From a virus: a DNA stretch of 54,844 nt. The stretch is from positions 1 to 54,844 of IMG/VR virus record IMGVR_UViG_3300032293_001351, one strand, 5' to 3'. Shown here in pieces: positions 2,934 through 54,844 of the stretch. A program made the position numbers and the translations under genes. Numbering within the stretch: the first letter of the stretch is position 1; each line of letters begins with the position of its first letter. Below the pieces are notes generated by a model. That model worked only from the letters and a program-made list of their open reading frames with translations, did no database searches and had not been told where the DNA came from.

Positions 2934-2962
2934 AGCCCTCGGCAAGTGCCAGGGCTTTTTTT
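2934..2962 (+). terminator. Rho-independent terminator between convergent genes
   Basis: AGCCCT (2934-2939) pairs with AGGGCT (2951-2956). Inside it, GGC (2941-2943) pairs with GCC (2948-2950) around an AAGT loop, and a run of seven T follows (2956-2962). It ends the 1529-2912 transcript. The T-run overlaps the stop codon of the minus-strand gene ending at 2961. Confidence 0.9.
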
Positions 2963-3416
2963 ATTCTACATCCTTTCTATAGAATCTACCTTGGATATTA
3001 TCGTTATATGAATCTATATGAAGAACTTTGTAATGCATTTGCCACCATACTTCATAATAAGTCAATTGTTTCTTAGAGTAACATAATTGTAAGATCTCTC
3101 TAGCAAACATATCGTCGCCTACTTCTTTTCTTTCTTGATTAAGAAGCTTATTACTTCCGTGATATGACAACCAATCAGACTCTTTAACTATCTTCCTCTT
3201 GCGTGGGACGCGCCCAGGTTTGTCCCATTCCGCGATCTCTTTCTTGGTTAATGCTTTATTGGTATTATTGAAAAGGACCTTTCTACCTATATAGAATTTG
3301 CCATTGACTAGATTGACAATCTTATATATAAAACCTACGGTATTAGGGGGAAAGTCTTCTATTGAATTAAACTCTCTAGTAACTCCTAGAGGATCGAAAT
3401 ATAACCATTTTTTCAT
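2961..3416 (-). CDS. GIY-YIG family endonuclease-like protein (151 aa)
   Basis: Residues 28-45 read GFIYKI-VNLVNGK-FYIGRK, the GIY...YIG core with the usual spacing. The conserved Arg follows YIG, then a basic segment (KPGRVPRKRKIVKES), WLSYHGSN and a downstream Glu-containing helix (DMFAREIL). The family cuts DNA with one metal ion; free-standing members in T4-like phages act as homing (Seg-type) nucleases or in DNA processing. It is the last gene of the long minus-strand operon, next to a terminator, a typical place for a mobile insertion. No separate DNA-binding repeat is visible, so the target cannot be guessed. Confidence 0.8.
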   Translation of the reverse strand: MKKWLYFDPLGVTREFNSIEDFPPNTVGFIYKIVNLVNGKFYIGRKVLFNNTNKALTKKEIAEWDKPGRVPRKRKIVKESDWLSYHGSNKLLNQERKEVGDDMFAREILQLCYSKKQLTYYEVWWQMHYKVLHIDSYNDNIQGRFYRKDVE

Positions 3417-3426
3417 ACTTTATTTT

Positions 3427-3726
3427 TTAACTATCCCACCTTATAATAAAAGTCATATCTGTATTAGGTGGTACTGGATATGGCCTTGATAATTTTCCTA
3501 CTACTAATAATTCGTCTTGATCATTATATAATCCTACAGTAGTTGTATAAGGATGAAAATCTGAACCTGTAACTGCATCAATGTAAGAACCTGTAGATCC
3601 TGCTACTGTTGCACTAGGATTTTGTGTGTAGTTAAAATCATTTTCTTTTACTCTACATCTAACTTCGTTTTGATATACAGTTGTTTCGGCTACTAAATTA
3701 AGAGTATATGCAGAATACGTTGGCAT
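3427..3726 (-). CDS. Small tail/baseplate-type structural protein (99 aa)
   Basis: This protein matches the C-terminal ~80 residues of the 344-aa product at 6311-7345. DFNYTQNPS corresponds to DYNYTTNPS, TTVGLYNDQDELLVVGKLSRP to TTVGLYNDNNELLAVAKMSKP, and both end in W. It is therefore a one-domain paralogue of that structural protein. An ATATTTAT motif lies 4 bases before its ATG, giving it its own late signal. Likely a baseplate or fibre-attachment component; exact role unknown. Confidence 0.8.
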   Translation of the reverse strand: MPTYSAYTLNLVAETTVYQNEVRCRVKENDFNYTQNPSATVAGSTGSYIDAVTGSDFHPYTTTVGLYNDQDELLVVGKLSRPYPVPPNTDMTFIIRWDS

Positions 3727-3730
3727 ACTT

Positions 3731-3738
3731 ATAAATAT
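3731..3738 (-). promoter_or_regulatory. ATATTTAT late-type motif before the 3726 gene
   Basis: On the minus strand reads caaATATTTATAAGt, with only 4 bases to the ATG. If it acts as a -10 element the message would be leaderless or nearly so. Confidence 0.5.
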
Positions 3739-3747
3739 TTGTTACTA

Positions 3748-4779
3748 CTATTCTTCAAATAAAGCTGATGCACAGTTTCTACAAATTGTTTCATAAGACT
3801 CTTGGACTTTTTGTTGGTGGTATTCTGTACCCCAAAAGTCTTTTAGTTCTTGTGTTTTAAAATCTCCAAACTGAACTTCCATATCATAATCATTACAACA
3901 TAAGAATACTTTGCCTGCAGCATTTACATGTATCCAACCTACTGGTCTACCTCCTACTTCTATACCATTACCACAACCAATAACTTTTTTAGTTTCATCT
4001 CCTCTTTGTAAATTTCTTTTAATTGCTTTTTTATTAGTCATTATATGATCTAACAATCCGGCTCTATCAATTAATGAAGGTACAGGAAATATTTGCATTT
4101 CAGGAAATAGTTGTTTCGCCTTTTCAACCTGAGATGCTAATTCTCCAGTATAGGGATCTAAGTCCATATCTTGAGGAAATTCTGGTCCTTTATCTAACCA
4201 GCCTCCTCTATTACTAAAAGAGTGGTGATTAGATCCATTTATTTGTATAGAAAAAGATTTATTTCTTACCATATCAGGTAACTTTTCTATTGCATAATTT
4301 ATATTTGAAATAAGTTTATCAAATTGTTTTATGTTAATGCCGCTTCTTTTACTCCAAGTTTCAGCATCAAATCCAGGAGTATTAAGACAAATACCATTAA
4401 CAACACCTTTATACTTTACAATTAGATCTACTTTTTCAGGAGTTAATGGAATACCATTTGATAAAACCATAAAACATAAACGATATTCTTGACATATTTT
4501 TAATAACTCTTCAAAATGAGGATATAAAAGAATTTCATTATAATGAGCAGTATAAAATCCTCCAAATGATTTAGCAACTAGACCGTCTTCTTTATTTCTT
4601 TCTTGTATAAGATTTTCTATTATTTTTCTTAATAGTTCAGGACTCATTACTTCTTTACCATGAGTAGGATTTCCTTTATACTTTACAGGACAAAACCAAC
4701 ATCTAGCATTACATACACCATAAGGATCTAATTGCATTTGGTGTATCTTAAATTTTTCAAACTGTTCTTTTACTATCAT
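3748..4779 (-). CDS. Radical SAM / SPASM-type enzyme (343 aa)
   Basis: The radical SAM cluster motif CNARCWFC puts Cys at 23, 27 and 30 (CxxxCxxC), which bind the [4Fe-4S] that cleaves S-adenosylmethionine. The C-terminal region has C269, GKVFLC (G-x4-C, C294/C295) and C333-x2-C336. That is the layout of a SPASM/twitch auxiliary-cluster domain, usual in enzymes that modify peptides, proteins or sugars. The start overlaps the upstream glycosyltransferase-like gene by 4 bases (ATGA), so the two are translationally coupled. It lies inside the tail operon, where such an enzyme is unexpected. Substrate unknown; a virion protein or a glycan are the obvious candidates. Confidence 0.88.
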   Translation of the reverse strand: MIVKEQFEKFKIHQMQLDPYGVCNARCWFCPVKYKGNPTHGKEVMSPELLRKIIENLIQERNKEDGLVAKSFGGFYTAHYNEILLYPHFEELLKICQEYRLCFMVLSNGIPLTPEKVDLIVKYKGVVNGICLNTPGFDAETWSKRSGINIKQFDKLISNINYAIEKLPDMVRNKSFSIQINGSNHHSFSNRGGWLDKGPEFPQDMDLDPYTGELASQVEKAKQLFPEMQIFPVPSLIDRAGLLDHIMTNKKAIKRNLQRGDETKKVIGCGNGIEVGGRPVGWIHVNAAGKVFLCCNDYDMEVQFGDFKTQELKDFWGTEYHQQKVQESYETICRNCASALFEE

Positions 4780-5732
4780 GCTAATGGAGATTTTTTTTCT
4801 ACTTCTTGTATTTCTTGATAGTATCTATAACTTGCTGTTCCTTCTTTTATTCTAAGATTCAAATTATATGGTACTGAATCGCGATAGTTTGCTTTATAAA
4901 ATTTTCCTCCACAAGAACAGGTTACTCCTGCGTTATGAAATATAGTAGCGTCATTAAATCTTTCTTCTCCATCTAATGCCCAACAAAAATCTAACTGCTT
5001 TATTATTTTAGTTTCATGACCTCTTAACCAACCATTCCAAAGAACTGCCCACATATCTGCACACCATATTTGAAGTTCATGGTAAGATTCGTTTTGTTGT
5101 TTCTTTAAATTATTTAATTCTGTAATTTGAAAATATAATTCTTCACAATCTTTTTCTACTTTTTCCCAAAATGTATAATCAATATTTTTAAGAATATATT
5201 GAGCACCACCTGAATTTGAATTCATTAATTTAGGAATAACTGGATCAATTCCAACTATTTCACACATTTTTAAATAAACATCTTCTCCTTTAGATTTTAT
5301 ATAAGTGTAATTTATATAGTTATTAGTATCACTTAAATACCAAATATCATCGGGTAAAAAATTTCTAAAATCTACTGGTTTAGTAAATATAATATCACAA
5401 TCATGATAAAATATTGCTTCTTTAGAAAGCTCAGGATACTCTTGAAAATGTTGTTTTAATATATTAGGTCTTATTGAAGAAACATATTTGATAGGCTCCT
5501 CTCTAGTATCTGGATAAAAAAAGAATCTAACATCTTTATAGTGATCTATTAATTTTTCCCATGCGTCTATAGATTCTTGACTACTAGTATTATCGTAAGG
5601 GTTACATGCAACTAAGATATCTATATCATCATAATCTATTCCACTTTTAATAAAGTTATTTATCATAACTTCTACTTGCCAAGCATAATATACTAGCCTA
5701 GGCTGAACACAAATGTAACGTAAATTTTTCAT
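4776..5732 (-). CDS. Glycosyltransferase-like protein, GT-A type (318 aa)
   Basis: Residues 108-119 read FYHDCDIIFTKP, a hydrophobic strand ending in Asp-Cys-Asp followed by a beta turn. This is the DxD metal/nucleotide-sugar motif of GT-A glycosyltransferases. A Gly/Asn-rich loop (MNSNSGGAQYIL) and a late His (ATIFHNAGV) fit the acceptor and metal sites. The family transfers a sugar from a nucleotide donor. It is coupled by a 4-base overlap to the radical SAM gene and sits between baseplate/tail genes. Possible acceptors are virion proteins, perhaps the Ser/Thr-rich tail fibre, or host glycans; this is inference. Confidence 0.72.
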   Translation of the reverse strand: MKNLRYICVQPRLVYYAWQVEVMINNFIKSGIDYDDIDILVACNPYDNTSSQESIDAWEKLIDHYKDVRFFFYPDTREEPIKYVSSIRPNILKQHFQEYPELSKEAIFYHDCDIIFTKPVDFRNFLPDDIWYLSDTNNYINYTYIKSKGEDVYLKMCEIVGIDPVIPKLMNSNSGGAQYILKNIDYTFWEKVEKDCEELYFQITELNNLKKQQNESYHELQIWCADMWAVLWNGWLRGHETKIIKQLDFCWALDGEERFNDATIFHNAGVTCSCGGKFYKANYRDSVPYNLNLRIKEGTASYRYYQEIQEVEKKSPLA

Positions 5733-5757: not shown

Positions 5758-6288
5758 TTATTGTATAAGTGCATTTTCATAATCTTGATTAGTAATAATA
5801 ATTATTCCTTGAGCATATAGAATATTACCAACATGAACATCGTTATTATTTGAATCTATAATGTTACCATTTCCATCATCTATAATATTATAAGTAGTTC
5901 CTGATAATTTAAAACTTTTTCTACTTATATTTTCACCAAATATTGTTCTAGGTATTGCCATAATACTTATTTGATTTCCTGATCCTGATGGAAAATACCT
6001 GTAGTCATTATCAAAAGTACCTTCGGCTGCTGTTGATTGTAAATCATCATTCCAAGCACTAGCACTATTATTTAATGATCCTGTTAAATAAGAATTATAA
6101 TAAAGTTGTTTTGCTAATTTATAAACTAAAAAATCCTCTCCATTTAAATTAAAAGATCCATTGATTCCTCTATTTAATGTTATTCCATAACTTGTGGCAG
6201 AGGAACTTGCATAAGATGCAGAATATTTTAACTTAATTGGATAAGTAGAAATATCTGATCTATCAAGAGTATTTTTTGATAATCCCAT
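5758..6288 (-). CDS. Tail/baseplate-type structural protein (176 aa)
   Basis: Beta-rich and poor in Cys, with Ser/Tyr/Asn-rich N-terminal strands. The segment ISIMAIPRTIFGENISRKSFKL, followed by IIDDGNGNI and HVGNILYAQGIIIITN, is a pattern I associate with structural proteins of distant T4-like phages. A strand with an IPR-x-FG-x-I turn is followed by a DDG-GN turn. It is embedded in a run of late structural genes with short spacers. The exact location in the tail is not known. Confidence 0.75.
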   Translation of the reverse strand: MGLSKNTLDRSDISTYPIKLKYSASYASSSATSYGITLNRGINGSFNLNGEDFLVYKLAKQLYYNSYLTGSLNNSASAWNDDLQSTAAEGTFDNDYRYFPSGSGNQISIMAIPRTIFGENISRKSFKLSGTTYNIIDDGNGNIIDSNNNDVHVGNILYAQGIIIITNQDYENALIQ

Positions 6289-6310: not shown

Positions 6311-7345
6311 CTACCAGTCTAATTTAACTCTTATCAATGCTTCTTTAGTAAAGTCTTTTGTAAGAGGTTTAGACATTTTAGCTACAGCTAATAACTCATT
6401 ATTATCATTATATAATCCAACAGTTGTAGGATATGTTTGTGGACTATTAATAAAATTAGAATATATTAGATCACCAGATCCTGTTATAAATGAAGGGTTA
6501 GTAGTATAATTATAATCAGCATTTCTAAATCTTACAAATATATAATCTGAAGAAATGGTTTCTTGTGAATTAAGTTGGAAGTTAGAACCTGAGTTTATTA
6601 TTGTATAAATTAAATGATTATTAGCACTAGATGCTGCTAGTGTATTTGTGGTAGTATTAAATGAAGTTAAAATACCTCCTGCAGCAGTACCTAAAGATAA
6701 AGCTCTTGGATTTAAAAGTATTAATCCAATATCAGGTAAAAATAAACCATAACTTCCAGATACGGTATATCCTTGAGCAGCGCCTGCTAAAGTTGGACTA
6801 TTTCTTGCAGTTCCATTAGAACCTGATACGATATCATAAACTCTCCCTCCATCTACGTATGTTATAGTAGATACATCATTAGAATTATCTGTTAGTCTAA
6901 TAGGACCATTACCAGCATTAGCTAAAGTTAAATTAAATGTACCAGGAAATAAACTTTCTTTATATTTATTTCTATCTATTTGAATAGCTATTAAATCAGG
7001 AGAGTTTGTATTCAATCCACCAAAATTTACAGGGCTTTCTGCATCTCCATAAATTAAATTTCTAAATTGTCCAAATGTAATTCTAGTAGGACTTTTTCCA
7101 GGCACTAAAGAATTTATTGGTGCAGAACCAGATCCAGCATAATGACCATAAGCTACTGAAAATTGTACTGATGCTGATGGAGAACTAGTATTGCCATCAT
7201 ACACATCTATATAATAACTACCTGTAGTTGATGCAGCGGCAGTGTAAAAAGATGTTAATGTAGTTACATTATTACTCCAAGCAGGAGCTGTTACCGAATC
7301 AGCAGATACTACAAAATCTGTTGCATCTAATGTTGTAAATGACAT
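6311..7345 (-). CDS. Structural protein sharing its C-terminal domain with the 3726 gene (344 aa)
   Basis: Thr/Ser/Asn/Gly-rich, beta-strand-rich throughout, no Cys. Residues 1-90 look like an Ig-like repeat, 90-230 a Gly-rich middle, and the last ~80 residues are the domain also found alone in the 99-aa protein (TTVGLYNDNNELLAVAKMSKP). It probably forms a baseplate or short-fibre part to which the small paralogue is added. Spacers of 11 and 22 bases on either side suggest one message with its neighbours. Confidence 0.8.
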   Translation of the reverse strand: MSFTTLDATDFVVSADSVTAPAWSNNVTTLTSFYTAAASTTGSYYIDVYDGNTSSPSASVQFSVAYGHYAGSGSAPINSLVPGKSPTRITFGQFRNLIYGDAESPVNFGGLNTNSPDLIAIQIDRNKYKESLFPGTFNLTLANAGNGPIRLTDNSNDVSTITYVDGGRVYDIVSGSNGTARNSPTLAGAAQGYTVSGSYGLFLPDIGLILLNPRALSLGTAAGGILTSFNTTTNTLAASSANNHLIYTIINSGSNFQLNSQETISSDYIFVRFRNADYNYTTNPSFITGSGDLIYSNFINSPQTYPTTVGLYNDNNELLAVAKMSKPLTKDFTKEALIRVKLDW

Positions 7346-7356
7346 ATATTATTTTA

Positions 7357-8016
7357 TTATGAGTTTACTTTTATAATTGTTACAGGTATGCTAATTCTAG
7401 CTCCAGAGTCGCGTCCAACTACAACTAAAGTAGTATATAAAGATGTACTAGAACCAAATAAAGTATTAACAGTTGTTGCCGTTAAATTAATAGTAGTTCC
7501 AATAACTGTTTTACTTACATTAGTACCAATAGTGGTTGTAGAATTTAACGAAGTAGCTTCAGGAGTATTAATTCCAACACCATTGAAAGAACTCATTGTT
7601 CTAACATCACCTATAGTAGCCACATATCCTGATTGTTCAAATGTTGATGTAGCACCAAGATAATTTAATGTTTGCGGAGTAATAGCAAGAGAAGCTCCTT
7701 GTTTTATTGTAATTGCTGTATATCCAAGATCTAAAACTGGTATTTTAGCAGTTCCTCTAGGAAGTGTAATAAGTTTATACTTCATAATCTCCATGTCATT
7801 AGGATATGCTTGAATTATAGGCATAGCTTCAATAGCCTCACCATAAAATGCAGATCCTGATGGATGATTTGGATTATAAAGAGTGTAGTCTATTTCATCA
7901 TCAGCTAAGCTGAATTGAGTTATTCTGAATGATCCATCGTTTCTAGAAAGAAGTTCCCTTCCTTTTTTAGTAAGGATGGCATCTACTACTACTGATGTAC
8001 TACTTAAATATGACAT
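7357..8016 (-). CDS. Tail structural protein (219 aa)
   Basis: The N-terminus carries VVVDAILTKKGRELLSRND followed by ITQFSLADDEIDYTLY. This 'LTKKGRELL...LADDEIDY' start is shared by tail-associated proteins of environmental T4-like phages. The remainder is Thr/Ser-rich beta sequence ending in a basic strand. Own ATATTTAT motif 16 bases upstream. Function within the tail not assigned. Confidence 0.78.
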   Translation of the reverse strand: MSYLSSTSVVVDAILTKKGRELLSRNDGSFRITQFSLADDEIDYTLYNPNHPSGSAFYGEAIEAMPIIQAYPNDMEIMKYKLITLPRGTAKIPVLDLGYTAITIKQGASLAITPQTLNYLGATSTFEQSGYVATIGDVRTMSSFNGVGINTPEATSLNSTTTIGTNVSKTVIGTTINLTATTVNTLFGSSTSLYTTLVVVGRDSGARISIPVTIIKVNS

Positions 8017-13741: not shown

Positions 13742-15601
13742 TTACATTGTTACTACGCGACCTTGAATATCTGTATTAGGAAATTTTAATTCAAATATAG
13801 AAGGATCTAAAGATGGGTAAATTACGCCATTTAAACTTCCTGCTGAAATATCATAAGAATATTTTGAATATCCATCAGCTTCTCCAAACTTATTTACTAT
13901 TTTTATGTCTTTTACAGTTTGAACACCTTCAACAACATCTAATAAAGAGTATATATCTCCTAATATAATAGGTTGATTTATTTGCCAGTTATTTATATTA
14001 AAAAAGTTTTGTAGTGCCAATATACATCTAGCAATTACATCTTGACTTGTATAATTAGGCCTGATTATAATTTCAAAATCGCATCCTATATTAATTATAT
14101 ACGCAGGTTTAATATTAACAGCGTCAGTCATCATTCTATAATCAGATAGATACGTCTGTAAATTTTGAAGTAGTGCTGGTGAAGGATTTGCTAAATTATT
14201 ACTAGAATTAAGACCTAGTACATAAAGACTAACTAAAACTTGATCTTTTTGACCAATATCTCCTTGCATATAATTATTAAATGTAGCATCATCTTTAGTT
14301 ATATATGCTTTAGATACTTTACCATATCGAGAAGGCATGCTAAGTGTTCTAGCTAAATAATCTTCTTGAGTTACGGCTCTGTATTGAGTAGGAAACTCTG
14401 CTGCTATATTCATTCTAAGCTCATCTATAGAATCTCCATCTCCACCCCCAGAAGCAGGGTCTGGATTATTTACAATCAAAGTATTTTCAAATGAAGAGTT
14501 TCCTGATAATATGTAAGAAGATATTTGAGTTAATTGATTAGAAAGAACATTTGCTTTTGCTCCTCCACCTACTAGATATTGAAAAGTTATTGTGGTATTT
14601 TTTGGTGCTAATCCATAAGTTTGAGTTGTTACAAAATTAGTCGGATCAAATGAACTAGATAGTGTACTAAGACCTCCACCAGTTAAACCGACACTTACAT
14701 TATTAGGATTAGGCAAAACAGCAGTATCAGCAACAGAATTAATACCAGGCCCAAATTCTATTTCTAATGATCCATCCGATCTAAATCTAGATGTAAACCT
14801 TCTAGGTACAGATAGTTTCTGTATCATATAAGGAACTTGGTTTTGAAATTGATATAAAGATGGATAATTTGCTGCTGTGTTTTCCACAGGTCTTAATATA
14901 TAATCTTGTGCTAAATAAGGAACTTCATACCAAGTATTACCATCAGAATCTTTTGCTTCTAATATAGTAATTATTGAATTGTCATTTATAGTTACTGTTG
15001 AAAATCTTTGTGGCGCTGAAAAACTAAAATTTTGAGTTTTTACTAATCCTGATATAGCTTGTACAGTTTTTCTTAATAAATAAGAAGTAGGTACATTTGA
15101 ACCATTTAAAGTATAAACTTCAACTGTAGTAGGATCTAATGAAGATGAAGTATTAAAATTAACTTTTTGAGGAACATAAAATGTTACAGAATTATCCACA
15201 TTTGATTTAATTTGCATTCCTTGTTCTAAAGTAAATGCGTAGCTAAAATCTGGTGCAACATCACCTCCACCAATATTAACTGCGGGTATTTGTTGATATA
15301 CATCAAGGTTCACTATAGCAGCAGATGTTATTTTAGGTCTATAACCTAACATGTAGGATAAAGTATATAAATTATTTTTTTGTTTTGAATATTGTAAAAA
15401 AGTTTCTTGAATTTGATTATCTAAATAAAATGAAAGAACATCTCCAACATAAGAAGCCATGTCTATAAACATACTACCTGGGCTAGCCTGCGTAAAATCA
15501 TTATACACAGTAGGATAATATGCTCTTGCATATTCTATAAGATCTGACTTAAAAGTAGAAAAATCTTTATTTAGATATCTTATGTCAATATTTGTTGCCA
15601 T
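13742..15601 (-). CDS. gp6: Baseplate wedge protein, T4 gp6 / baseplate J family (619 aa)
   Basis: The start MATNIDIRYLNKDFSTFKSD leads into FTQASPGSMFIDMASYVGDVL and LYTLSYMLGYRPK, the hallmark N-terminal region of gp6-type wedge proteins. The middle holds the baseplate-J-like part (GGGDGDSIDELRMNIAAEFPTQYRAVTQEDY), and the C-terminus has an insertion domain plus the VVEGVQTVKDIKI strand. gp6 forms the ring around the hub and cross-links the wedges. Length is close to T4 gp6 (about 660). It directly follows gp25, as in T4-like operons. Confidence 0.95.
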   Translation of the reverse strand: MATNIDIRYLNKDFSTFKSDLIEYARAYYPTVYNDFTQASPGSMFIDMASYVGDVLSFYLDNQIQETFLQYSKQKNNLYTLSYMLGYRPKITSAAIVNLDVYQQIPAVNIGGGDVAPDFSYAFTLEQGMQIKSNVDNSVTFYVPQKVNFNTSSSLDPTTVEVYTLNGSNVPTSYLLRKTVQAISGLVKTQNFSFSAPQRFSTVTINDNSIITILEAKDSDGNTWYEVPYLAQDYILRPVENTAANYPSLYQFQNQVPYMIQKLSVPRRFTSRFRSDGSLEIEFGPGINSVADTAVLPNPNNVSVGLTGGGLSTLSSSFDPTNFVTTQTYGLAPKNTTITFQYLVGGGAKANVLSNQLTQISSYILSGNSSFENTLIVNNPDPASGGGDGDSIDELRMNIAAEFPTQYRAVTQEDYLARTLSMPSRYGKVSKAYITKDDATFNNYMQGDIGQKDQVLVSLYVLGLNSSNNLANPSPALLQNLQTYLSDYRMMTDAVNIKPAYIINIGCDFEIIIRPNYTSQDVIARCILALQNFFNINNWQINQPIILGDIYSLLDVVEGVQTVKDIKIVNKFGEADGYSKYSYDISAGSLNGVIYPSLDPSIFELKFPNTDIQGRVVTM

Positions 15602-51926: not shown

Positions 51927-54844
51927 ATGTCAAACCAGTTTCTTAAACTTCGCAGATCCGCAGTACCTGGTAGAATTCCCGATACAGCGTCTTTACAATT
52001 TGGTGAGATAGCACTTAATACCTATGATGGTTTAGCATTTATTAAAAAATCTGGTTCTAATGGTGAACAAATAGTTACAATAGGTAATACATCTGGTTCA
52101 TTTACAGGATCTTTTTTTGGCACAGCAAGTTGGGCAGTAAATGCACTTACCGCATCTAATACTCCTAATGCATTTGTAACAGCTATACAAGTATTTCCAG
52201 ATACTATTCAATTAATTAAAGGTAATGGAGATACTGAAAACTACAATATTAATGATGTAGTACAGGCGCAAAATGCAACCTTAGCTTCAACAGCATCATC
52301 AGCAGACGATTTTATAGTAAGAGGTACATTAACAGCTCAAACTATTGTAGCTCAAGTTATAACATCGTCAATTCAATATGTAACAGGATCAACTATATTT
52401 GGCTCTGAGTTATCTAATACACACGAGTTTACAGGTTCAGTAAATATTACTGGATCATTAACTATAAACGGCTCTTCGTTTACTGCTGCTACTAGTGGAA
52501 CTAGTGGCACTGCAGGTTCATCAGGTAGTTCAGGTACTAGTGGTTCATCAGGATCATCTGGTACAAGTGGATCATCTGGCAGTTCTGGAAGTACTGGAAC
52601 ATCAGGATCTTCAGGTTCATCTGGCAGTTCTGGAGAATCAGGCACAAGTGGTAGCGCTGGTTCAAGTGGAACATCAGGCTCTAGCGGTAGTTCAGGCACG
52701 TCGGGTTCTACAGGAACATCTGGTAGTGCAGGAACTTCTGGTACGTCTGGATCTAGTGGCACAAGTGGAGAAAGTGGTACAAGCGGATCTAGCGGTACTT
52801 CTGGTTCATCAGGCTCTACAGGAACATCAGGATCTTCAGGTAGTGCAGGTACTAGTGGTAGCTCTGGTTCTTCAGGAAGTAGTGGCAGTTCTGGAACATC
52901 AGGAACAGGATTTAATACTATTAGCAATGCAGGTCAAGGCAGAATAATATTGTCTGATGGTACAACAAATGCAGCAACTGCATCGTCTAATTTAACTTAT
53001 ACAAATAATACTTTATCTATAACCGGCTCTCTTATTCAAGGATTAGAGGGGAATATAGCAACAGGAGAATATTCACATGCTGAAGGAAGTATTACTAAAG
53101 CAATAGGAGACTATTCACATGCCGAAGGAGATTTTACCCAAGCAAAAGGAAATTACTCACATGCTGAAGGTCAAGAAACAATAGCATCAGGATCTTATTC
53201 ACATGCCGAAGGATTACAAACAATAGCATTAGCTAACTATCAACACGTACAAGGCCAATATAACTCTGTATCATCTGTGCCTGCAGCTTTTATTGTAGGT
53301 AATGGAACTGACGATGGTAATAGAAGTAATCTTATATACGCTGCAGGAAATGAAGTGCAGATATCAGGATCTCTACAAGTATCAGGAGGTATTACAGGGA
53401 GTTTAAATGGTACTGCTAGTTGGGCTCAAAATTCCCTAACCGCATCTTCAGCTGATAATTTTACAGTAAGAGGCACTTTAACTGCACAAACAATTGTAGT
53501 TCAAACAATTACATCGTCTGTTGATTTTGTAACAGGATCTACTAGATTTGGATCGCAACTATCTAATACACATCAGTTTACTGGTAGTGTTTCTGTAACT
53601 GGTTCTTTAGCTGTTAAAGACCTTACACTAAATAACTTATCTCGTTTTGTAGTTATAGACGAAACTACAGGACAATTATATTATAATACAGCTGGGGCTT
53701 CTGGCTCATCAGGTACAAGCGGTACATCAGGTTCAAGTGGAACATCTGGTAGCTCAGGTACATCTGGCCAAAATGGTTCTTCTGGTACTTCTGGCACTAG
53801 CGGAACATCTGGATCTACGGGTACTAGTGGTAGCGCAGGATCTTCAGGTTCAACAGGTACTTCAGGATCTAGTGGTAGCACTGGAACTTCTGGCTCTAGT
53901 GGTACAGCAGGATCTTCTGGTTCATCAGGTAGTTCAGGGTCTACAGGAACTAGCGGATCTAGTGGATCTTCTGGAACATCTGGAAGCTCAGGCACTTCTG
54001 GAGTAAACGGAACTAGTGGATCTTCTGGAACATCTGGTTCTTCTGGATCTACAGGTACAAGTGGATCTGCAGGCACGTCTGGTTCTAGCGGAACTAGTGG
54101 TTCAAGTGGTAGTACTGGTACATCTGGTAGTGCAGGTACATCTGGATCATCGGGTTCGAGTGGTAGTTCTGGCACCTCAGGCACAGGATTCAATACTATT
54201 AATAATCCTGGAGCTAATAGAATAATATTATCTGATGGCACAACTAATGCTGCAACTGCCTCATCTAATTTATCTTTTTCTAATAACGTACTACAAGTAA
54301 CTGGTAGCATATCAAGTAACGGAACAATAACTGCTCAGACTCTTATTGTTCAAAATATTACTGCTTCTCAAGAATATATTACTGGTTCAACAATATTTGG
54401 AAGTTTACTAACTAATACGCATCAATTTACTGGTTCAGTAAACATTACTGGATCATTAACTATAAATGGAACTTCATTTACTACAGCTACTAGTGGTACA
54501 TCAGGTACTTCTGGATCTAGTGGAACTTCTGGCTCATCTGGAACCTCAGGAACTAGTGGATCTGCAGGTACTAGTGGTTCTACTGGAACATCTGGATCTA
54601 CAGGAACTAGTGGTTCATCTGGTGTAAGTGGAACTTCTGGAAGTTCAGGTAGTACTGGTACCTCTGGTTCTACAGGCACGAGTGGAAGTTCAGGCACTTC
54701 TGGTTCTAGCGGATCTAGTGGCTCTTCTGGTACTTCTGGTGCAAATGGATCTAGTGGTTCTAGTGGTTCTAGCGGAAGTGCAGGATCTTCTGGAACAAGT
54801 GGTGCTAATGGTTCATCAGGCAGTTCAGGTACTGCAGGTACATC
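51927..54844 (+). CDS. Giant collagen-like tail fibre protein, 3' end outside window (>972 aa)
   Basis: MSNQFLKLRRSAVPGRIPDT begins a T4-like fibre attachment region (LQFGEIALNTYDGLAFIKK). Then come three copies of a beta unit: TAQTIVAQVITSSIQYVTGS plus NTHEFTGSVNITGSLTING, and variants near residues 513-570 and 798-855. Each is followed by a Gly-x-y tract of GTSG/GSSG/GSAG units (about 190-327, 591-753, 855 to the edge). Between copies one and two lie five 14-residue repeats of the SYSHAEG type (from residue 381), as in YadA/hemagglutinin head domains. GTGFNTI plus RIILSDGTTNAATASSNL occurs twice. Likely trimeric and host-binding. No stop before the window end. Confidence 0.9.
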   Translation, partial: MSNQFLKLRRSAVPGRIPDTASLQFGEIALNTYDGLAFIKKSGSNGEQIVTIGNTSGSFTGSFFGTASWAVNALTASNTPNAFVTAIQVFPDTIQLIKGNGDTENYNINDVVQAQNATLASTASSADDFIVRGTLTAQTIVAQVITSSIQYVTGSTIFGSELSNTHEFTGSVNITGSLTINGSSFTAATSGTSGTAGSSGSSGTSGSSGSSGTSGSSGSSGSTGTSGSSGSSGSSGESGTSGSAGSSGTSGSSGSSGTSGSTGTSGSAGTSGTSGSSGTSGESGTSGSSGTSGSSGSTGTSGSSGSAGTSGSSGSSGSSGSSGTSGTGFNTISNAGQGRIILSDGTTNAATASSNLTYTNNTLSITGSLIQGLEGNIATGEYSHAEGSITKAIGDYSHAEGDFTQAKGNYSHAEGQETIASGSYSHAEGLQTIALANYQHVQGQYNSVSSVPAAFIVGNGTDDGNRSNLIYAAGNEVQISGSLQVSGGITGSLNGTASWAQNSLTASSADNFTVRGTLTAQTIVVQTITSSVDFVTGSTRFGSQLSNTHQFTGSVSVTGSLAVKDLTLNNLSRFVVIDETTGQLYYNTAGASGSSGTSGTSGSSGTSGSSGTSGQNGSSGTSGTSGTSGSTGTSGSAGSSGSTGTSGSSGSTGTSGSSGTAGSSGSSGSSGSTGTSGSSGSSGTSGSSGTSGVNGTSGSSGTSGSSGSTGTSGSAGTSGSSGTSGSSGSTGTSGSAGTSGSSGSSGSSGTSGTGFNTINNPGANRIILSDGTTNAATASSNLSFSNNVLQVTGSISSNGTITAQTLIVQNITASQEYITGSTIFGSLLTNTHQFTGSVNITGSLTINGTSFTTATSGTSGTSGSSGTSGSSGTSGTSGSAGTSGSTGTSGSTGTSGSSGVSGTSGSSGSTGTSGSTGTSGSSGTSGSSGSSGSSGTSGANGSSGSSGSSGSAGSSGTSGANGSSGSSGTAGT
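52491..52906 (+). repeat. First Gly-x-y (GTSG/GSSG) coding tract
   Basis: About 138 residues of triplets with Gly at every third position and Ser/Thr/Ala elsewhere, read in the fibre frame. Codons are highly mixed (agt, tca, tct, tcg, agc; ggt, gga, ggc), so DNA identity between units is low although the protein is regular. Confidence 0.9.
53067..53276 (+). repeat. Five 14-residue YSHAEG repeats
   Basis: EYSHAEG, DYSHAEG, NYSHAEG, SYSHAEG and the decayed NYQHVQG, each starting 14 residues after the last. This is the period of left-handed trimeric beta-roll head domains of adhesins. Confidence 0.9.
53697..54183 (+). repeat. Second Gly-x-y coding tract
   Basis: About 162 residues of Gly-Thr/Ser-x triplets with occasional Asn (GQNG, GVNG). 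It ends with the same TSGTGFNTI junction as the first tract. Confidence 0.9.
54490..54844 (+). repeat. Third Gly-x-y coding tract, cut by the window edge
   Basis: Begins after the third copy of the beta unit (INGTSFTTATSGTSG) and runs to the end of the window; the tract may continue. Confidence 0.9.

Follow-up and report, generated by a model that had tools for sequence, protein, structure and literature searches.

What do a glycosyltransferase and a radical SAM enzyme, encoded by two overlapping genes among the tail genes of a phage, modify? The pair lies in IMG/VR virus record IMGVR_UViG_3300032293_001351, of which the whole stretch analysed here (positions 1 to 54,844; 54,844 nucleotides) is called the window, and which derives from a T4-like phage whose capsid protein is 54% identical to that of Flavobacterium phage immuto. 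From comparison across phages, we favour, with moderate confidence, a reading in which the pair is a virion-glycosylation cassette, the glycosyltransferase (GT) priming threonine-rich tracts and its neighbour (rSAM) modifying the glycan. The features concerned are:

4776–5732, minus strand: phrog_4417 glycosyltransferase, GT-A fold, GT8/GT24-like, 318 aa (motifs, AF2 model, fold search)
5394–5402, minus strand: D-C-D (DxD) metal/nucleotide-sugar motif, GT residues 111–113 (both Asp invariant, 48 homologues)
3748–4779, minus strand: BtrN-like twitch/SPASM radical SAM enzyme, 343 aa (Pfam, profile, fold)
4690–4713, minus strand: radical SAM CxxxCxxC motif, C23, C27 and C30 (conservation)
3772–3975, minus strand: auxiliary-cluster region with invariant C269, C294, C333 and C336, C295 being invariant too (conservation)
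4776–4779, minus strand: ATGA stop/start overlap coupling GT and rSAM (sequence)
5758–6288, minus strand: c3, short fibre module, 176 aa, no Thr tract (comparison with relatives)
6311–7345, minus strand: c1, conserved tail/fibre gene of the clade (comparison with relatives)
7357–8016, minus strand: c5, conserved tail gene, clade anchor (comparison with relatives)
3427–3726, minus strand: small gene like the C-terminal domain of c1, closing the cassette in relatives
51927–54844, plus strand: collagen-like fibre carrying G-[ST]-[ST] repeats, cut off by the end of the window; a candidate acceptor for the present phage alone

The enzyme pair in a T4-like tail operon

The preliminary description had placed a GT and a radical SAM protein among structural genes, and this was borne out, as both reading frames were found on the minus strand with the ATGA overlap, within a T4-like tail operon whose neighbouring genes are tail and baseplate genes, such as a baseplate wedge/J homologue at 13742–15601. 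The tail genes flanking the pair have relatives in immuto and in Microcystis phage Mel-JY01, and no homologue of the pair itself was detected in either phage. Across the T4-like clade the genes run in the order c5, c1, the fibre gene c3, GT, X and a c1-like gene, where X varies. A SegE-like GIY-YIG endonuclease (2961–3416; cluster c6) is encoded directly downstream of the tail operon and occupies the same site in many relatives.

The GT protein belongs to phrog_4417 (2e-61), a family annotated as of unknown function, and matched no Pfam or NCBIfam family and no PDB chain by sequence, so that a fold search was used to place it instead. Its AF2 model (pLDDT 96, 48 homologues) adopts a GT-A fold that matches glycogenin (Z 15.1, rmsd 3.3, 218 aa), LgtC (Z 14.4) and Skp1-Gat1 (Z 14.3), and also UGGT. 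Glycogenin, LgtC, the Skp1 galactosyltransferase Gat1 and UGGT are retaining, metal-dependent GT-A enzymes using UDP-sugars. With D111 and D113 invariant and the model showing this fold, the earlier reading of the DCD protein as a GT-A glycosyltransferase is confirmed; a His-Asn-Ala-Gly sequence near the C-terminus is invariant as well. Because no named GT family was reached by a sequence profile, we assign the protein no further than to the GT-A fold and do not place it in GT8. The gene is under purifying selection in comparison with the nearest relative, L001 (dN/dS 0.11). One homologue, gp49 of Enterococcus phage phiFL2B (L142, 5001–5909), is mislabelled ‘major tail protein’; the true major tail protein of that phage is gp48, encoded just upstream (phrog_238, 8e-55).

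The second protein has both the CxxxCxxC motif and the core domain of the radical SAM superfamily, scoring above the curated Pfam cut-offs (Radical_SAM PF04055, 4.8e-11; SPASM, 1.1e-8), and its C23, C27 and C30, together with the auxiliary C269, C294, C333 and C336, are invariant among 42 homologues. The Pfam matches and invariant cysteines uphold the radical SAM part of its previous assignment as a SPASM-type protein, whereas ‘twitch-like’ is more exact than full SPASM, since only four auxiliary cysteines plus C295 are present. Four cysteines for one auxiliary cluster in a shortened SPASM domain fit the twitch of BtrN as PMC9012708 describes it. BtrN was also the top profile match (3e-11), with EpeE/YydG second (0.001); the auxiliary region aligned to BtrN too, C294, C333 and C336 falling inside the stretch aligned to the BtrN auxiliary region. 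In the fold comparison BtrN again came first (Z 18.3 over 227 aa), followed by SkfB (16.4), anSME (16.3), DesII (16.1) and SuiB (about 16). A named rSAM family was rejected for the window protein, as no NCBIfam equivalog reached its cut-off (the best, spiroSPASM, gave 39 bits against a required 250, and the others fell far below). The family comprises 59 loci in IMG/VR; tblastn found none in 50,697 phage records, and no relative that would point to a cellular origin emerged when 84,980 genomes were scanned twice, the short exact peptides used there leaving absence unproven. Like the GT, the rSAM is under purifying selection relative to L001 (dN/dS 0.09).

Threonine tracts and the acceptor

The gene directly upstream of GT contains a run of at least five Thr in 107 of 145 distinct loci, compared with 70 of 1549 other genes, and when at least 10 Thr in 20 residues were required, the upstream gene qualified in 92/145 loci and the downstream gene in 0/147; these loci were collected for their similarity to the GT and are related to one another, so that the counts are of distinct sequences and not of independent events. 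Conversely, among 58 IMG/VR loci chosen by an in-frame T8+ tract alone, eight contained a GT, which was the next gene after the tract in all eight, and the other 50 had no phrog_4417 neighbour within the available stretch. The GT is therefore strongly tied to the tract, but tracts by themselves are frequent and serve other purposes; the 50 tracts without such a neighbour count against the cassette reading.

GT and tract are associated within the T4-like clade (38/4/6/37, Fisher 2.5e-13) in a test that pools loci anchored on GT with loci anchored on c5. Taken by itself, the c5-anchored set comprises one GT-positive locus, which has a tract, and 41 GT-negative loci, 35 of them tract-free; the six ‘tracts’ in the GT-negative loci are mostly Thr-Pro-type repeats. 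A Thr8 pattern was present in 7 of 11 GT-positive records versus none of 11 records lacking a GT beside c5 (nine contigs, immuto and Mel-JY01).

In the annotated phages examined, the upstream genes mostly encode tail tube, capsid or small decoration proteins, and in those of Gram-positive hosts a major tail, major head or Ig/decoration protein. Several of these upstream proteins end in Thr runs (TTTTTT, TTTTTSTTTTTTSSTTTTTTT, VKPTTTT, VKPTTTTTT). Cultured phages with the pairing include Enterococcus phage phiFL and Lactobacillus phages iLp84 and Semele. The GT gene stands beside the gene of an exposed virion protein, as expected of a virion glycosylation system. In Arcanobacterium phage TPWB06 (L149), the major tail protein (3164–3757) ends TTTTTTTTTP just before the GT, and an overlapping ORF in another frame (3720–3926) continues with VKPTTTTTTT repeats, an arrangement suggestive of a programmed frameshift that would append a longer run of Thr.

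Decoration of a virion protein, as the preliminary description had proposed, is well supported by the position of the GT behind fibre, tail tube, capsid and decoration genes, by the poly-Thr link and by GT-rSAM fusions (see below), and we consider it highly probable that a virion protein is the acceptor. On this basis, the phrog_4417 enzyme would act in the cytosol as a metal-dependent GT-A enzyme that places the first sugar on Thr (or Ser) of a structural protein, and in most phages the acceptor would be the mucin-like poly-Thr tract of the protein encoded just upstream.

The window itself departs from this pattern, as its adjacent upstream gene has no Thr tract and no Thr7 run occurs anywhere within the window, and the missing usual acceptor counts against the cassette reading here. 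Relatives encode a c3 with the same N-terminal module followed by poly-Thr tracts and a variable C-terminus, whereas the c3 of the window consists of that module only and lacks both tract and adhesin, like its counterparts in L001, L061 and L253. These three loci and L290 carry short fibre variants with neither Thr tract nor C-terminal adhesin, and the GT still lies behind them. Purifying selection nevertheless acts on both genes, so that the two enzymes are presumably used.

The acceptor proposed beforehand, the Ser/Thr-rich collagen-like fibre, stands as a candidate within the window but not as the acceptor signal across phages, which is the upstream poly-Thr tract. Its gene (51927–54844) encodes three long collagen-like blocks composed almost solely of GSS/GTS/GST triplets, and its product is the sole very Ser/Thr-rich virion protein seen in the window. 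The expected co-occurrence of the pair with GTSG-type fibres failed when checked, as the distribution of such fibres does not follow that of the GT: G[ST][ST] repeats were absent from all 11 GT-positive T4-like relatives, whose homologous fibres lack them, and were present in three of five phages with rSAM and GT and in Mel-JY01, in which no GT homologue was found. The GTSG fibre was accordingly rejected as a general acceptor, G[ST][ST]x5 having been seen in 4 of 27 records, none of them a T4-like relative from IMG/VR, whether GT-positive or GT-negative. Since the homologous fibres of the GT-positive relatives lack the repeats, a GTSG acceptor is possible in this phage but is not a general rule.

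The exchangeable downstream gene and the substrate of the radical SAM enzyme

In 73 of 88 same-strand loci the GT gene and the one that follows it overlap, and in several other phages (L013 among the loci) GT and rSAM are fused into a single protein, with GT first (1–318) and rSAM second (326–665). Where the downstream gene is not an rSAM (62 loci), it encodes a GT2 (14) or GT6 (12) enzyme or, in further loci, a methyltransferase or a GT32, GT25, fringe-like or mannosyltransferase-like protein. Because other loci hold glycosyl- and methyltransferases at this position, the rSAM fills the slot of a glycan-elaborating enzyme, and we hold with good confidence that it works in the pathway of the GT. 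With the second enzyme swapped among close relatives and the first kept, the cassette looks like a generator of virion-surface diversity.

When the rSAM occurs with other partners, these are usually a PF11397 GlcNAc-transferase, GT2, GT32 or GDP-mannose 4,6-dehydratase, and some rSAM loci add heptose-type nucleotide-sugar genes. PF11397 is the family to which we take TcOGNT-2 of Trypanosoma cruzi to belong; a scan for further PF11397-type partners gave four loci. In L036, L038–L042 and L055, the rSAM accompanies a PF11397 GlcNAc-transferase of the Skp1/hydroxyproline type and several prolyl-hydroxylase-like 2OG-Fe(II) oxygenases, a set that resembles a hydroxylate-then-glycosylate pathway, and some of these loci also hold Thr-rich Fn3 tail proteins. 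In L002, L010 and L013–L019, the GT/rSAM cassette is followed by GT4, GT9-like, cytidylyltransferase and PfkB kinase genes (Pfam-checked in L002, where the GT4 carries a methyltransferase domain), which looks like a phage-encoded heptose-nucleotide pathway. A different setting is seen in L030, L031, L056 and L059, in which the rSAM neighbours a GT2 within a block that resembles DNA metabolism (helicase, primase, nucleotide kinase) rather than a tail operon, with no Thr tract, and no sugar gene adjoins the rSAM in L021 and L050; both sets count against the cassette reading.

In the mechanism that we propose, the next gene of the operon would encode a ‘finishing’ enzyme that can be exchanged: most relatives have a methyltransferase or a further glycosyltransferase there, and this phage has a BtrN-like twitch rSAM that would abstract hydrogen from the attached sugar or from its activated donor. 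Like BtrN, it may serve as a two-electron oxidase of a sugar-like alcohol, and it would most likely oxidise or deoxygenate the sugar, leaving an unusual keto- or deoxy-sugar on the tail. Glycan modification is likelier than the peptide modification first suggested by the SPASM label, because the closest enzyme, BtrN, acts on a cyclitol (a sugar alcohol) and the rSAM sits with sugar genes, and we judge a sugar the probable substrate.

Alternatively, the cassette may decorate the virion as above while the rSAM epimerises, crosslinks or oxidises Thr, Ser or Gly of the fibre before or after glycosylation. Most SPASM enzymes have peptide substrates, peptide maturases make up most of the NCBIfam matches, EpeE/YydG ranks second by sequence, and anSME, a relative of BtrN, oxidises Ser and Cys side chains; the peptide-acting SkfB, anSME and SuiB lie only about 2 Z below BtrN, near-ties that count against a sugar substrate. 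Nevertheless, the four auxiliary cysteines correspond to the twitch of BtrN and not to a full SPASM set, BtrN ranks first by both profile and fold, the operon slot elsewhere holds sugar and methyl transferases, and no small precursor peptide gene stands out beside the rSAM, leaving the peptide alternative rather unlikely.

Less probable still is that the pair changes a host surface polysaccharide, leading to superinfection exclusion or a change of serotype, a version of which (masking of the host surface) had been offered as the alternative to virion decoration. Some loci do contain GT4, GT9-like, hexapeptide and heptose/GDP-mannose genes typical of LPS, and pelagimyophages carry radical SAM cassettes and glycosyltransferases in a host-recognition island for which a change of host LPS was proposed (PMC7029224). 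However, neither protein of the pair has a membrane segment (maximal 19-aa hydropathy 1.07 and 0.96), the GT of Gram-positive phages lies directly behind tail, head or Ig genes, and a host-surface role does not predict the poly-Thr link. Modification of DNA, in which, as in T-even phages, the GT would glycosylate hydroxylated bases, with the rSAM modifying a base, is very improbable: the phage is T4-like and one rSAM subgroup lies with GT2 among replication-like genes, but the pair is located in a late tail operon, the GT family spans phages with unrelated replication and stands behind structural genes, and a Thr-tract link would not be expected.

Comparison with known systems

Virion glycosylation by phages is already known: according to Freeman et al. 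(2023), as cited in PMC12363180 and PMC12619734, phage-encoded glycosyltransferases decorate the capsid and tail tube proteins of mycobacteriophages Che8, Corndog and Myrna, with glycans at the C-termini. The present cassette resembles that system in the proteins it is predicted to glycosylate, and differs in its uniform GT family, phrog_4417, presumably distinct from the mycobacteriophage GTs, in the Thr-homopolymer tracts beside the GT gene and in second enzymes that are exchanged between phages, a radical SAM enzyme among them. In the open literature searched, with most subscription papers outside its scope, we came across neither the poly-Thr/phrog_4417 pairing nor any role of radical SAM enzymes in the glycosylation of virions, and nothing relevant on poly-Thr or threonine-rich phage glycosylation; within that literature, the pairing and the rSAM role appear new.

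The reading gives a testable function to phrog_4417, a family of ‘unknown function’ or mislabelled as a tail protein in cultured Enterococcus, Lactobacillus, Lactococcus and Staphylococcus phages, and predicts mucin-like O-glycans on the tails, heads or fibres of many phages. It would place a BtrN-like radical SAM enzyme in glycan biosynthesis on a virus particle, which, if true, would be the first radical SAM chemistry on virion glycans, and the resulting surface diversity could bear on adsorption, phage–phage competition and the recognition of phages.

The GT shares its whole-protein GT-A fold, the DxD motif and the invariant His-Asn-Ala-Gly near the C-terminus with the GT8/GT24 retaining enzymes, but has no detectable sequence similarity to any PDB chain. 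BtrN, the 2-deoxy-scyllo-inosamine dehydrogenase, shares with the rSAM the radical SAM core and the twitch, with four cysteines for one auxiliary cluster, while the rSAM is about 18% identical, longer (343 versus about 250 aa), carried by phages and either linked to a glycosyltransferase or fused with one.

Tentatively, we speculate that tailed phages of very different hosts may share a mucin-like system in which a GT primes poly-Thr on exposed virion proteins and a swappable enzyme, here an rSAM dehydrogenase acting on the protein-bound sugar, diversifies the glycan. This is reminiscent of mucin O-glycosylation in Trypanosoma cruzi, where the polypeptide alpha-GlcNAc-transferase TcOGNT-2 acts on KPPTTTTTTTTKPP, the known acceptor of this mucin-priming enzyme being poly-Thr punctuated by Lys and Pro (PMC3769586). 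The likeness, an analogy, lies in a Mn-dependent enzyme priming Thr runs flanked by Lys/Pro that other enzymes extend (PMC3769586), whereas the phage GT is GT8/GT24-like by fold, and it is in other phages that a PF11397 GlcNAc-transferase accompanies the rSAM.
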